DNA from: Anderseniella sp. | GTDB lineage: Bacteria > Pseudomonadota > Alphaproteobacteria > Rhizobiales > Aestuariivirgaceae | DNA length: 64,000 nt | Reading direction: 5' to 3' | NCBI GenBank assembly: GCA_030626025.1 | Contig: DAOUPT010000009.1 | Span: forward strand, 1-64,000 | Shown here: positions 2,666 through 8,002 of the stretch, piece after piece | How positions within the stretch are numbered: position 1 is the first letter of the stretch | How the letters are laid out: every line of letters begins with the position of its first letter | The notes under the pieces: generated by a model | What the model was told of the DNA's origin: nothing | The model's input: the letters and a program-made list of their open reading frames with translations, nothing else | The model's database searches: none | Translations under genes and position numbers: made by a program

Positions 2666-4006
2666 CTAGATTGAATTTAAAAACACTTTTGCCGCTTGCC
2701 CATGTTCGTACCTTAATCGCGAAATATCGATTCCAACAGGGTTGGCATCCTCAACCCGCCACTCCCCTCCAACCATCACCCGGTCAGCCGTATGAGCCCC
2801 GCAAAGCACCAGCGCAGCCAGCGGGTCTCCGGCACCTGAAAAGCGCAATTCGTCCAGTTTATACATGGCAAAATCAGCCTGCATGCCGGGGGCAATTTTG
2901 CCAATATCTTGGCGCCCCAGACAGGCCGCCGAACCTTCTGTCGCCCAACGAATAGCATCAAGATGGGTGGTTTTGGCACCCGGATACGTCAGCCGGTTAA
3001 TCATCAGGGCATGGCGAACGGCTTCCATCATGTTGGATGAATCGTTGGACGCCGAACCATCAACGCCAAGTCCGACCGGGCTACCGGCAGCTTCCAGTTC
3101 ATGGGTTTTGCAATGGCCTGAACTCAGCACCATGTTGGAGGTCGGACAATGACAAATAGCAACCCCTGCTCTGCCCAACCTTTCAACCTCGTCGGTTTCA
3201 AAATGAATTCCGTGGGCCAGCCAGGTGTTCTCATGCAACCAGCCGACATCCTCAAGATAATCAAGCGGTCGCAGTCCGAACAATTCCTGACAAAAGGCAT
3301 CCTCATCATGTGTTTCAGCCAAATGGGTGTGAAGTCGGCACGAACAGCTTTTGGCAAGATCAGCGCAACCTTTCATCAACTCACGGGTAACCGAAAACGG
3401 CGAGCATGGCGCCAAAGCAACCTGTATTTGCGCACCAGCGCTGTTGTCATGATAGGTTTTGATCACCCGCTCGCAATCGTCCAAAATTTCATCGGTATCC
3501 TGAACAACACTGTCAGGTGGCAACCCACCATCTTTTTGCGACAGGTTCATCGAGCCGCGAGTAACCGTCAATCTTATCCCCAGCGCCAGAGCTTCTTCCA
3601 CCTGAATATCCATGGCATTTTCCAGCCCGATCGGAAACAGATAATGGTGATCACTGGCACAGGTGCCACCCGACATCATTAATTCAACCAACGCCAATCT
3701 GGTTGCCAGACGATGCGCGTCAGGGGTCAGCCGCGCCCACACTGGATAAAGTGCCTGCAACCACGGAAACAGTTCCTTGTTGATAGCTTCCGGGTGGGCA
3801 CGGGTCAGGGTTTGATAGAAATGATGATGGGTGTTTATCAGGCCGGGCAAAACCACATGCTCACTGGCATCAAAAACCTGATCAACCGGGGTTGTCGGGC
3901 TTTTCCCACTGGCAACAACCTCGGAAATCACGCCACCTTCAATCACCACACCACCAGCAGCATATTCGCATAAAATCGCAAGCGGGTTTTTTATCCAGAG
4001 GCGCAT
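2666..4006 (-). CDS. 8-oxoguanine deaminase (amidohydrolase family)
   Basis: This 446-residue amidohydrolase of the ATZ/TRZ group resembles 8-oxoguanine deaminase (EC 3.5.4.32) most closely. Support comes from the metal-binding H60-x-H62 in NTHHHFYQTL, the following RAHPEAINKELFPWL stretch, HTHLAE, LAHGIH, CHCPTSN and the distinctive VDGSASNDSSNMMEA. The reaction converts 8-oxoguanine, a product of oxidised nucleic acid, to urate and ammonia. The neighbouring coxG-type gene often travels with xanthine-oxidase-type molybdoenzymes that also make urate, which fits purine catabolism. Related hydrolases share the fold, so the exact substrate is inferred from motif similarity. Confidence 0.85.
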   Translation of the reverse strand: MRLWIKNPLAILCEYAAGGVVIEGGVISEVVASGKSPTTPVDQVFDASEHVVLPGLINTHHHFYQTLTRAHPEAINKELFPWLQALYPVWARLTPDAHRLATRLALVELMMSGGTCASDHHYLFPIGLENAMDIQVEEALALGIRLTVTRGSMNLSQKDGGLPPDSVVQDTDEILDDCERVIKTYHDNSAGAQIQVALAPCSPFSVTRELMKGCADLAKSCSCRLHTHLAETHDEDAFCQELFGLRPLDYLEDVGWLHENTWLAHGIHFETDEVERLGRAGVAICHCPTSNMVLSSGHCKTHELEAAGSPVGLGVDGSASNDSSNMMEAVRHALMINRLTYPGAKTTHLDAIRWATEGSAACLGRQDIGKIAPGMQADFAMYKLDELRFSGAGDPLAALVLCGAHTADRVMVGGEWRVEDANPVGIDISRLRYEHGQAAKVFLNSI

Positions 4007-4015
4007 GAAATCCGC

Positions 4016-4744
4016 TCAGCCGATCCCACCAAACAAAATAAAGAAAAGCAGAATAATCGCAGCCCCGAGTGCGGCCAGGATAATAGCCACCAACGGACTT
4101 GATTCGGATTGCTTGGTAATCTGCTCCGGCTCTTGTTTTACCACAGCAGCAGGCTTTGCTGATTTCTGTGGAGCCTTTTTCGGTGCTTCTACAGAAGCTA
4201 CAGGTTGTTTTTTGACTGTTGCGGTCTCTTTAGCCCCTTTTTTGGCAGGTTTCTTAGCCGCAGCCTTCTTCCTAACGACCTTCTTTGCCGGTTTGCTGTC
4301 GCCGCCATCAGCAGCCAGTTTGGCAAACTTCTTGAAAAAATCATTAGCCATCTTCTTGGCCGTCGAAGCAATCAACCGGGAACCGATTTGCGCCAGCTTG
4401 CCGCCAACTTGCGCATCCACGTCATAGGTCAAAATTGTGTGGTCACCGTCTTCATCAAGCTTTACCGTCGCCTTGCCCTTGGCAAATCCGGCAACCCCGC
4501 CTTTGCCCTGCCCGCTCAAGACATAACTTTTAGGCGGGTTGAGTTTTGACAGTTTAACATCACCTTTAAACGTTGCCTTTACCGGGCCAACCTTGGCCTG
4601 CACCGTGGCGGAAAACTCCGTGTCGGACGTTTTTTCCAGCTCTTTACAACCAGTGATAGATTTTTTGAGAATGGCCGGATCGTTCAACGCTTTCCAAACC
4701 TGTTCGCGCGGTGCGGCAATCTTTTCTTCGCCCGACATTTTCAT
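4016..4744 (-). CDS. CoxG-like SRPBCC protein with Lys/Ala-rich linker and C-terminal membrane anchor
   Basis: Residues 1 to about 145 form a CoxG/SRPBCC domain (starts MSGEEKIAAPREQVW; later GKGGVAGFAKGKATV and YDVDAQVGGKLAQIGSRL). Residues about 150-215 are a low-complexity Lys/Ala/Pro linker, and 218-240 are a single hydrophobic helix ending in Gly-rich residues. CoxG-type proteins help place molybdenum hydroxylases such as CO dehydrogenase at the membrane. No cox structural gene is in the window; the next gene is the 8-oxoguanine deaminase, so a xanthine-dehydrogenase-type partner elsewhere is more plausible (inference). The first ATG (4744) has AAGGAAA upstream; a second ATG lies two codons in. 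Confidence 0.85.
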   Translation of the reverse strand: MKMSGEEKIAAPREQVWKALNDPAILKKSITGCKELEKTSDTEFSATVQAKVGPVKATFKGDVKLSKLNPPKSYVLSGQGKGGVAGFAKGKATVKLDEDGDHTILTYDVDAQVGGKLAQIGSRLIASTAKKMANDFFKKFAKLAADGGDSKPAKKVVRKKAAAKKPAKKGAKETATVKKQPVASVEAPKKAPQKSAKPAAVVKQEPEQITKQSESSPLVAIILAALGAAIILLFFILFGGIG

Positions 4745-4746
4745 GG

Positions 4747-5859
4747 CTAATTTCCTTTTTCCCAGTCTTGCATGGTTTGATTTTTAAACGCTTCAAAAGT
4801 TCCGGCCTCAATCGCGCTACGCATCCCGGCCATTAATTCTTGATAATAAGCAATATTGGCCCACGACAGCAACATCATACCAAGAATTTCATTGGCTCTG
4901 ACCAAATGATGCAGATAAGCCCGCGAATATTTATTGAGCGCCTCATGGCCGGAGGTCTCATCAAGCGGTCGCAAATCCTCGGCGTGTTTGGCATTGCGAA
5001 TGTTAATTTTTCCAAATCGTGTGAATGCCTGACCATGGCGACCGGAACGGGTTGGCATAACACAATCAAACATGTCGATGCCCCGCTCCACTGACAACAA
5101 CAAATCAAGCGGCGTACCAACGCCCATAAGATAGCGCGGTTTATCGGTGGGCAAATGCGGCGCGGTCACCTCAATGGTTTGCAGCATCAACTCCTGCCCC
5201 TCACCCACAGCCAAACCACCAATGGCATAACCTTCAAAGCCGATTGAAATCAGACCCTTTGCCGATTGCTCACGTAAATCCGCCTCAATCCCGCCCTGAA
5301 CAATGCCAAAACAGGCATGGCCGGGTTGCTCGCCAAAAGCTGTGCGCGAGCGTTCAGCCCAGCGCAAGGAAAGCTCCATCGCCCGTTGCGCATCATCGCG
5401 ACTGTGTGGAAAACCAACACACTCATCAAGTTGCATTTGAATGGTTGATCCGAGCAGGCGCTGAATTTCCATCGACCGTTCAGGGGTTAGTTCATGTTTG
5501 GAACCATCAATATGCGACTGAAAAGTCACGCCCTTTTCGGTAAGCTTGCGCAATTTGGCCAGTGACATCACCTGAAATCCGCCAGAATCCGTCAGGATAG
5601 GCCCATCCCATTTGATCAGGTCATGTAATCCACCAAGCCGCGCCACTCTTTCAGCCCCGGGCCGCAACATCAAATGGTAGGTGTTACCGAGAATAATATC
5701 GGCCCCGGCATCACGTACTTGATCCATATAGAGAGCTTTGACGGTGCCTTGTGTACCAACCGGCATGAATGCAGGCGTCTGGATATCGCCGCGCGGGGTT
5801 TTAACCACACCGCGCCGGGCAAGGCCGTCGGTTTTGAGCAGTTGATAAGAAAAGGTCAT
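4747..5859 (-). CDS. tgt: Queuine tRNA-ribosyltransferase (TGT), zinc site apparently lost
   Basis: The 370-residue enzyme exchanges guanine 34 for preQ1 in tRNAs with GUN anticodons. Catalytic parts are intact: D91 in TDSGGFQ (general base) and D265 in [13 protein letters not shown] (nucleophile). The usual CxCxxC zinc triad before the conserved YSRAYLHHL is absent: the equivalent positions are S303, H305 and L308, and the fourth ligand, normally His in a WHN motif, is A334 in [10 protein letters not shown]. Thus all four structural zinc ligands differ. The start codon overlaps the queA stop (ATGA), so queA and tgt are coupled. Identity is certain; the effect of zinc loss on folding is unknown. 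Confidence 0.96.
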
Positions 5860-6953
5860 TTTTTGGGGAACAACAAACTGGAATCGCCATAGGAGTAAAA
5901 ACGGTATCCGCTTTCAATAGCATGAGCATAAGCTTTGTGCATAGTTTCCTGACCAGAAAAAGCGGAAACCAGCATAAACAGAGTGGATCGCGGCAGATGG
6001 AAATTTGTCATCAAACCGTCGATAAAGCGGAACTTATAGCCAGGTGTGATGAAAATGTCGGTACTATCTGAAAAGGCGTGAAGTTTTCCGTTTTCATCCG
6101 CAGCACTTTCCAGCAACCGCAACGCGGTCGTGCCCACAGCAATAATCCGGCGGCCCTGCTGTTTGGCCTCATTCAGGCGTTCGGCCAGTTCTGCTGACAA
6201 AACCCCGTTTTCCGAGTGCATTTTATGATCCTTGGTATCACCGGCCTTGACCGGCAAAAAAGTCCCGGCTCCGACATGCAAGGTGAGATATTCCAGCGAA
6301 ACACCGCGCGCCGAAAGCCTGGCCATCAAATCAGCGGTAAAATGCAACCCGGCGGTCGGTGCCGCAACAGCGCCGTCATGGGTTGCATACATGGTTTGAT
6401 AATCATCCAAATCAGCATCGTCACATGCCCGTTTGGAAGCGATATAGGGCGGTAGTGGCATCTCGCCATGGGTAGCAATCGCGGTTTCCAGAAACGGTCC
6501 CGACAAATCAAAGGCAAGTTCTATCTCGCCGCCCTCACCTTTTGCAACCACCTTGGCATTCAGATTGTCGACCATGCAAACATCGCCGGAGCCGGAAAAA
6601 CAAATGTTGTCGCCGACATTCAGCTTGCGGCCCGGTTTGGCAAAAGCCTTCCAGCTTGATGGAGAAAGATTTTGATGAAGGGTAACTTCAATATTAGGTG
6701 TAGTGGTGCCGCGACCGGTTCGAATGCCGCGCAGTCGCGCCGCAATTACCCGGGTGTCATTGCAAACAAGGACATCACCCTCATGCAACAAATCAGGTAA
6801 ATCACCGACCGAATGATCCGACAACAACTCATCAGACATTATTCCATCAGTCTGGGGTGCCACCAAAAGCAATCGCGCCGCGTCCCGTGGATTTGCGGGT
6901 CGCAGCGCGATGTTTTCTGTTGGTAGATCGAAATCAAAATCGTCTACACGCAT
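5856..6953 (-). CDS. queA: S-adenosylmethionine:tRNA ribosyltransferase-isomerase
   Basis: The 365-residue QueA transfers and isomerises the ribosyl group of SAM onto preQ1-modified tRNA, giving epoxyqueuosine, the step after TGT. The family pattern is visible from the N-terminal [15 protein letters not shown] through [24 protein letters not shown] near the middle and [14 protein letters not shown] near the end. Length is normal. The stop overlaps the tgt start by four bases. The upstream cyclophilin gene stops 15 bases before this start. Confidence 0.97.
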
Positions 6954-6968
6954 TGGAAAGTTATTCCT

Positions 6969-7433
6969 TTACGCGTCTGCAGCAACCTGCATTTTAACGA
7001 TTTTGTCAGGAGATGCAGGTGGTTCACCTTTGGCCAGCATGTCAACAAAGTCCATGCCTTGTGTAACCTGACCCCAAACCGTGTATTGACCGTTGAGAAA
7101 CGCCGAATCGCCAAAGCAGATAAAAAATTGGCTGTTGGCACTGTCAGGCATTTGCGAACGGGCCATGGAACAGGTACCGCGCACATGTTTTTCCTTGTTA
7201 AACTCTGCTTTGATGTCCGGCTTTGACGAGCCGCCCATACCAGTACCATTCGGGCAACCGCCCTGGGCCATAAATCCGTCAATCACCCGGTGAAAAATCA
7301 AGCCATCGTAAAATCCTTCACGGGCAAGCTCTTTAATCCGCGCCACATGACCGGGTGCCACATCAGGTTTCAACTCGATAACCACACGACCGTGGTCGGT
7401 TTCGAGATATAAAGTGTTTTCAAGATCGGACAT
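6969..7433 (-). CDS. Cytoplasmic cyclophilin-type peptidylprolyl isomerase
   Basis: This 154-residue single-domain cyclophilin catalyses cis-trans isomerisation of prolyl bonds. Motifs include LIFHRVIDGFMAQGG, GTGMGGS, CSMARSQMPDSANSQFFI and LNGQYTVWGQV. It has no signal peptide, unlike the paralogue just upstream (7462-7983), so it should act in the cytoplasm. The pair is a tandem duplication, and this arrangement next to queA-tgt and coaD is common in alphaproteobacteria. Called ppiB in some genomes; I leave the symbol open because two copies sit side by side. Confidence 0.95.
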   Translation of the reverse strand: MSDLENTLYLETDHGRVVIELKPDVAPGHVARIKELAREGFYDGLIFHRVIDGFMAQGGCPNGTGMGGSSKPDIKAEFNKEKHVRGTCSMARSQMPDSANSQFFICFGDSAFLNGQYTVWGQVTQGMDFVDMLAKGEPPASPDKIVKMQVAADA

Positions 7434-7461: not shown

Positions 7462-7983
7462 CTAGTTTTTTACATACATTTTGAGGATTTTATCAGGGTT
7501 GCGTGGTGGCTCGCCCTTGTTGATTTTATCGATACAGCTCATGCCTTTAGTGACTTTACCAAAAGCGGTATATTTCTCATTAAGGAAGTGCCCGGCAGCC
7601 AACATAATGAAAAACTGCGAGTTGGCACTATCAGGCGAGGAAGAACGGGCCATACCAACGATACCGCGATCAAATGGCGCACGGTTAAATTCAGCTTTCA
7701 GGTCAGGCAATTTGGAACCGCCTCTGCCGGTACCGGTCGGATCGCCAGTTTGGGCCATAAATCCGGCGATGACGCGATGGAAAATGATACCGTTATAAAA
7801 ACCTTTTTTGGCCAGACTTGCAATACGATTAACATGGTTGGGAGCCAGCGCCATGAAGGGTTTGATTTCAACTTCACCGCATTTCAGCTTCATAACGATT
7901 GTTTCAGCCGATGCCGTTCCAACAACTGCGGTACTCAAGCCAACCGCAAAAGCACCAGCAATGAGGGTTTTCATCATCTTCAT
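7462..7983 (-). CDS. Periplasmic cyclophilin-type peptidylprolyl isomerase
   Basis: This 173-residue cyclophilin begins with a Sec signal peptide (basic MKMMK, hydrophobic stretch, cleavage likely after TASA near residue 26), followed by the domain with GIIFHRVIAGFMAQTG, GTGRGGS and SPDSANSQFFI. I set the start at ATG 7983: the in-frame TTG at 7995 lies within the GGAGAG that serves as ribosome-binding site. It is the exported partner of the cytoplasmic paralogue 28 bases downstream and probably helps fold envelope proteins. Confidence 0.94.
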   Translation of the reverse strand: MKMMKTLIAGAFAVGLSTAVVGTASAETIVMKLKCGEVEIKPFMALAPNHVNRIASLAKKGFYNGIIFHRVIAGFMAQTGDPTGTGRGGSKLPDLKAEFNRAPFDRGIVGMARSSSPDSANSQFFIMLAAGHFLNEKYTAFGKVTKGMSCIDKINKGEPPRNPDKILKMYVKN

Positions 7984-8002
7984 TTGTCTCTCCAATAAAA
8001 TT

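Follow-up and report, generated by a model that had tools for sequence, protein, structure and literature searches.

Can a tRNA-guanine transglycosylase (TGT) do without its zinc ion? This question is raised by a gene in the window, the 64,000-nt stretch of Anderseniella sp. contig DAOUPT010000009.1 that was analyzed, whose product carries other residues at all four positions where zinc ligands are expected. TGTs are said to have two hallmarks, one of them the zinc-binding domain (PMC6165067), and the enzyme is stated to require zinc for activity (PMC9508795, listing Chong et al. 1995). In the eukaryotic TGT subunits, the site is formed by three cysteines and one histidine, the cysteines of human QTRT1 being Cys317, Cys319, and Cys322 (PMC6165067, PMC3660597).

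The tgt gene and its neighborhood

The gene, tgt, occupies positions 4747 to 5859 on the minus strand and codes for a bacterial tRNA-guanine(34) transglycosylase of 370 amino acids (TIGR00430 and PF01702). Its minus-strand reading frame is intact, and the plus-strand frame of the same interval is interrupted by stop codons. The protein scores 474.2 bits against the equivalog model TIGR00430 (cut-off 306.75), aligning with model positions 1 to 363 of 368, and matches PF01702 with an E value of 2e-155 as the sole match to that family in the genome. The neighboring gene, queA (5856 to 6953, minus strand), codes for the next enzyme of the queuosine pathway (TIGR00113, 356.5 bits against a cut-off of 267.45; NF001140, 451.4 against 324), and the end of queA and the start of tgt share 4 bases.

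The binding pocket of the window TGT is of the preQ1 type, with a GGLAVG motif, V218 (equivalent to Val233), and C147 (equivalent to Cys158). The same GGLAVG pocket is reported for E. coli TGT (PMC10723273). The queuine-type pocket used for salvage, which that paper defines as GG[LS][AS]G and which is found in Chlamydia, is absent from the window TGT. Queuosine genes identified in this genome code for QueA, QueF (E 3.1e-32), QueG (420.7 bits), and a QPTR-type transporter (E 1.6e-21). The sole QueC match spans 61 residues at 22.3 bits (Pfam cut-off 22) within a 556-aa frame (L363, at G000:C113:17069-17251). Given so marginal a match, import of preQ0 or preQ1 may take the place of synthesis in this strain, which on its gene content is possibly a salvager of these compounds rather than a queuosine maker.

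Several other genes lie nearby on the minus strand. Directly downstream from tgt, positions 4016 to 4744 code for a protein whose middle part is rich in Lys, Ala, and Pro and whose C-terminus is hydrophobic; its only NCBIfam match is to an Rv0910-type family and falls below the cut-off (28.7 bits against 100). An 8-oxoguanine deaminase is encoded at 2666 to 4006 (657.9 bits, cut-off 532). Upstream of queA are two adjacent cyclophilin-type peptidylprolyl isomerase genes (6969 to 7433 and 7462 to 7995), both of which score under the equivalog cut-offs.

The zinc site of the window TGT

In the Zymomonas mobilis enzyme, the zinc ligands are C318, C320, C323, and H349. Alignment to the Z. mobilis chain 1ozm places S303 (codon at 4951 to 4953), H305 (4945 to 4947), L308 (4936 to 4938), and A334 (4858 to 4860), all on the minus strand, in the columns of the first, second, and third cysteines (Cys1, Cys2, and Cys3) and of the histidine, respectively. 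A first-pass annotation of the window had named exactly these four residues, and both their positions and the alignment verify this assignment. Residues 205 to 359 align with 1ozm by phmmer free of gaps, and the zinc-site stretch of the window TGT lies on DSECHCAVCQKWSRAYIHH of that chain. Here CHCAVC of 1ozm pairs with SGHEAL and TEHNIAFY with SWANIAYY, so that the ligand histidine stands opposite an alanine. A shifted alignment around residues 300 to 335 can be set aside, since the 1ozm alignment is ungapped from 205 to 359 and a MAFFT alignment of 311 loci keeps the same columns.

On sequence, it can also be dismissed that ligands are supplied from elsewhere in the protein. Its only cysteines are C147, C183, and C266, none of them in the C-terminal subdomain. 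C147 aligns with the pocket residue C158 of Z. mobilis and C266 with C281, which adjoins Asp280, so two of the three occupy catalytic-core columns. No second CxCxxC occurs anywhere in the 370-aa sequence. The catalytic residues D91 (codon at 5587 to 5589; D102 in Z. mobilis) and D265 (5065 to 5067; D280), both on the minus strand, had been called intact, and their positions confirm it.

The combination S-H-L-A occurs at the same positions in two other genomes of the genus (L314 and L317), whose TGTs are 92-93% identical to that of the window. Because these two genomes encode the same four residues, a sequencing accident is ruled out. Damage to the gene or an assembly error is excluded by the TIGR00430 score, by these genus members, and by a dN that is low relative to dS. 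Judging from the missing ligands, zinc would be absent from the window TGT.

Distribution of zinc-less TGTs

The four ligand columns were read in 311 loci aligned with MAFFT, in which the window is L001, and TGTs without a complete CCCH ligand set are here called zinc-less. This survey covers Pseudomonadota and, beyond it, only PDB hits and papers. The order of the window was taken as Hyphomicrobiales from its nearest named relatives; the coded and named sets of loci are not directly matchable. From the order, 90 of the 95 other matching genomes were fetched, leaving out four same-genus repeats and one split gene (G032), and all 90 TGTs, from 48 families by code, are without the complete set. 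The family of the window was read in 30 of 57 matching genomes, and again every one of the 30 (window, G022, and G068 included) is zinc-less. A tgt match persists in 96 of 101 genomes of the order.

Elsewhere in the class, 109 of the 167 matching genomes among the matches listed provided 110 loci, 30 chosen by best score and 80 mainly as one per family. Twenty of these 110 are zinc-less, one each in 20 of 104 families, again among the matches listed. Outside the class, 50 TGTs of Pseudomonadota were read among the matches listed, and none of the 30 best-scoring or the 20 lower-scoring ones is zinc-less. Both lists of matches, for the rest of the class and for Pseudomonadota beyond it, stop short of the lowest-scoring ones. 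In a set of 80 named loci, 66 lack the CCCH set: NCBI places 59 in Hyphomicrobiales, one in Geminicoccales, and one in Parvularculales, and gives no order for five. The 14 named loci with CCCH include Rhodobacterales, Sphingomonadales, Acetobacterales, Rhodospirillales, Rickettsiales, and SAR116.

The trait therefore belongs to the order and not to the window gene alone. It had been suggested at first that some relatives might also lack the cysteines; reading the site columns across alphaproteobacteria bears this out in a stronger form, as an order-wide absence of the complete set.

Two zinc-bearing cases were encountered along the way. A TGT from Pseudomonadota outside the class (L344, genome G302) keeps its zinc ligands and carries about 12 additional residues between the CxCxxC and SRAYL motifs. 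One genome of the class (G127) has two tgt genes on different contigs (L133 and L210), both with full zinc ligands.

Ligand states and a proposed order of loss

The ligands have not disappeared evenly. Among 176 zinc-less TGTs, the window excluded, Cys2 is kept in 151, the histidine in 24, Cys3 in four, and Cys1 in two. Loss of all four is rarer, being found in 18 of the 176 and in the window. Cys1 is most often replaced by Ser, Cys3 by Ala or Ser, and the histidine by Asn, Ala, Ile, or Val; Thr also occurs at Cys3, and Trp, Asn, Ser, and others occur at Cys2. Besides the genus of the window (S-H-L-A), Cys2 is gone in its sister genus (N-H-L-A, H-H-L-A), in Bradyrhizobium (S-W-T/A-I), and in others. 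Two loci outside the order, L136 (C-C-S-H) and L261 (C-C-L-H), keep three ligands and may yet be able to bind zinc; the zinc-less counts include both.

From these states, read as they stand rather than through a reconstruction, we infer a stepwise loss. L136 and L261 resemble early stages, and S-C-S-H resembles an intermediate one. An ancestor would have lost Cys1 and Cys3 first and the histidine thereafter, with Cys2 going last in scattered lineages that include the genus of the window.

One loss or several

How often this happened was examined with trees from which columns 297-308 and 333-335 were excluded throughout. Two sets, of 70 and 113 rows, were selected; the 113-row set takes in all zinc-less rows of the class from outside the order together with L095 and L103, and the 70-row set omits L232 from those zinc-less rows. 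In the careful tree of 70 rows, an 18-row clade with support of 97/95 unites the window with Hyphomicrobiales, Parvularculaceae, and related families, and zinc-less rows elsewhere raise the count to eight changes. Letter composition is unusual in six rows, which come from genomes of 1.0-1.4 Mb, and five of these sit on end branches longer than 0.8.

It is quite possible, and we propose it tentatively, that TGT is not intrinsically dependent on zinc and that Alphaproteobacteria took the site apart step by step and lost it on several independent occasions, maybe as an adaptation to spare zinc or to thiol stress. If so, an order-wide class of metal-independent TGTs exists that work with a scaffold that has changed little. 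A single loss in Alphaproteobacteria followed by horizontal transfer into scattered families is a somewhat more doubtful proposal, and would be compatible with a working zinc-free enzyme. A single origin is not what the 70-row tree displays, given its eight changes and the presence of one zinc-less clade in 0 of 200 bootstrap trees, and a 312-row FastTree needs 12 changes. The AU test against one such clade in the 70-row tree is nonetheless borderline (p 0.056), and the starred branches of that tree force one change only. Similarly, the 113-row quick tree has eight changes as it stands, but uniting its 47 zinc-less rows gives a tree that is 54 log units better (p-AU 0.815).

Conservation, selection, and predicted structure

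All 177 zinc-less TGTs of alphaproteobacteria, that of the window among them, have the same residue at seven positions: D91, D265, C147, V218, Y315, H318, and E324. The last three are the equivalents of Tyr330, His333, and Glu339 of Z. mobilis, and we take Glu339 to have a role in the dimer. The homodimer hot spot of the Z. mobilis enzyme comprises Phe92, Trp326, Tyr330, and His333 (PMC5395182). In these columns, the window TGT keeps Y315 and H318, has Y311 in place of Trp326, and has L81 (5617 to 5619) in place of Phe92. Phenylalanine is mostly conserved in the Phe92 column. Leucine takes its place in the window TGT, in its genus, and in many TGTs of Rhizobiaceae; in all, 20 of 177 zinc-less TGTs have it, versus three of 105 zinc TGTs.

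When redundancy-weighted residue frequencies of zinc and zinc-less TGTs are compared, three of the four ligand columns show the strongest differences. Beyond the ligands, the top differing columns are 275, 44, 134, and 141; within residues 284-345 of the subdomain, columns 284, 337, and 310 come next and most others are much lower. This comparison, which ignores phylogeny, revealed no convincing compensating residues around the zinc site, and the differing columns other than ligands may reflect ancestry only. The scaffold was thus largely preserved while the ligands were lost.

The tgt gene is under purifying selection. Between the window and the two other genus members, dN is 0.063-0.070 and dS is 2.1-3.4, the latter being saturated. 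Over residues 284-345, four of 62 residues differ and dN is 0.076-0.083, which is not lower than for the whole gene; the subdomain is therefore constrained about as much as the rest, and not more.

An AlphaFold2 model of the window TGT, built on a 100-sequence alignment, has a mean pLDDT of 95.8, with values of 97-99 over residues 291-350. The predicted structure is a TIM barrel with a C-terminal helical subdomain, and its best PDB matches by Foldseek are the Z. mobilis TGTs 1efz and 1ozm (TM 0.97, rmsd 1.1 Å), so the prediction agrees with the fold of the zinc-bearing enzyme. The model says little about stability because AlphaFold2 ignores metals and a few substitutions hardly register.

A probable working enzyme and its alternatives

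Very probably, the window gene encodes a working TGT whose C-terminal subdomain would fold and dimerize without structural zinc. Such an enzyme would exchange guanine-34 of tRNAs with GUN anticodons for preQ1. The former metal site would be filled by small or apolar side chains: chiefly Ser and Ala where Cys1 and Cys3 stood, and Asn, Ala, Ile, or Val where the histidine stood.

Experiments on relatives bear on this proposal. Bartonella henselae TGT is reported to complement an E. coli queDF tgt deletion when preQ1 is supplied (PMC10723273), and the journal version describes this complementation as partial (PMC11570991); zinc is mentioned nowhere in the main texts of these two reports. The sequence of B. 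koehlerae (L089), which stands in for that of B. henselae, reads S-C-A-N at the ligand columns, as does that of S. kostiense (L034), which stands in for S. meliloti. An S. meliloti tgt mutant is reported to leave the HeLa cytoskeleton unaltered even with preQ1 and to be impaired in nitrogen fixation, and a queA mutant to have little or no symbiotic phenotype (PMC3568095). Given this queA result, the tgt phenotype does not report cleanly on queuosine. Taken with conservation across the order, the B. henselae complementation and the Sinorhizobium tgt phenotypes indicate that zinc-less TGTs are probably active. The stated zinc requirement does not conflict with the zinc-less enzymes if it is a property of the zinc-bearing branch.

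The window TGT might instead still bind a metal through a rearranged site, made of H305 or a relic Cys2 together with H317/H318, or formed across the dimer interface. The frequent retention of Cys2 and the 24 retained histidines would fit such a site, as would the several family members that have histidine in column 303, column 305, or both (H-C-L-A, H-H-L-A, N-H-L-A, and S-H-L-A). We nevertheless regard it as improbable, since the substitutes are varied and mostly of non-ligand types (Asn, Ala, Ile, Val; Ala, Ser, Thr; Trp, Asn, Ser), the C-terminal subdomain of the window TGT offers no other cysteine, and H318, the counterpart of the dimer residue H333, is likewise retained by 102 of 105 zinc TGTs. 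Even less credible is a gene in decay or without TGT activity, of which the missing ligands would be a symptom. Decay of tgt does occur in the order, where the gene is reported to be fragmented in several Bartonella quintana strains (PMC10723273), but the window gene has an open frame, a score above the model cut-off, a low dN relative to dS, and the catalytic Asp pair shared by all 177 zinc-less TGTs, and the order retains tgt widely while this genome has the queA overlap and queG. The proposal made at the outset, a natural zinc-free TGT and not a damaged gene, thus remains the best reading of a gene that is intact, overlaps queA, is under purifying selection, and has kept its catalytic residues.

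Implications

Contrary to the stated zinc requirement, TGTs lacking the ligands occur throughout an order to which rhizobia and Bartonella belong. Every relative examined from this order has a broken zinc site, which suggests that TGT can dispense with the ion. No description of a zinc-less TGT or of its distribution was recognized among titles and the starts of abstracts in searches of mainly non-subscription literature, and database curators may already know of such proteins. In these bacteria, zinc limitation would not need to affect the TGT step of the queuosine pathway, and annotating their TGTs with zinc by homology would be an error. Because natural zinc and zinc-less TGTs both exist, the role of zinc can be tested directly by swapping a few residues.

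Comparison with known systems

The closest comparison is with Z. mobilis TGT (1ozm, 1efz, 1pud) and E. coli Tgt, whose fold the window TGT is predicted to share, with 58% identity to 1efz. Like zinc-containing bacterial TGTs, it keeps the catalytic Asp pair and the equivalents of Cys158/Val233 and Tyr330/His333/Glu339; unlike them, it has S, H, L, and A for the three cysteines and the histidine, and it departs further from Z. mobilis at Leu81 and Tyr311 of the dimer hot spot. The B. henselae enzyme is likewise a Hyphomicrobiales TGT with a GGLAVG pocket, and its relative in B. koehlerae is also without Cys1, Cys3, and the histidine but, unlike the window, keeps the second cysteine.

The eukaryotic subunits QTRT1 and QTRT2 are homologous to the bacterial protomer. 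In contrast to the window TGT, both are reported to keep the three cysteines and the histidine, even in the non-catalytic subunit (PMC3660597). A parallel outside this family is provided by glutamyl-tRNA synthetases, tRNA enzymes whose zinc subdomain is described as being without the zinc motif in many bacteria, and whose zinc-free forms are reported to function (PMC4381286). The enzyme and the subdomain are different ones, and some bacteria have deleted the whole domain of the synthetase, whereas the TGT subdomain has been kept.
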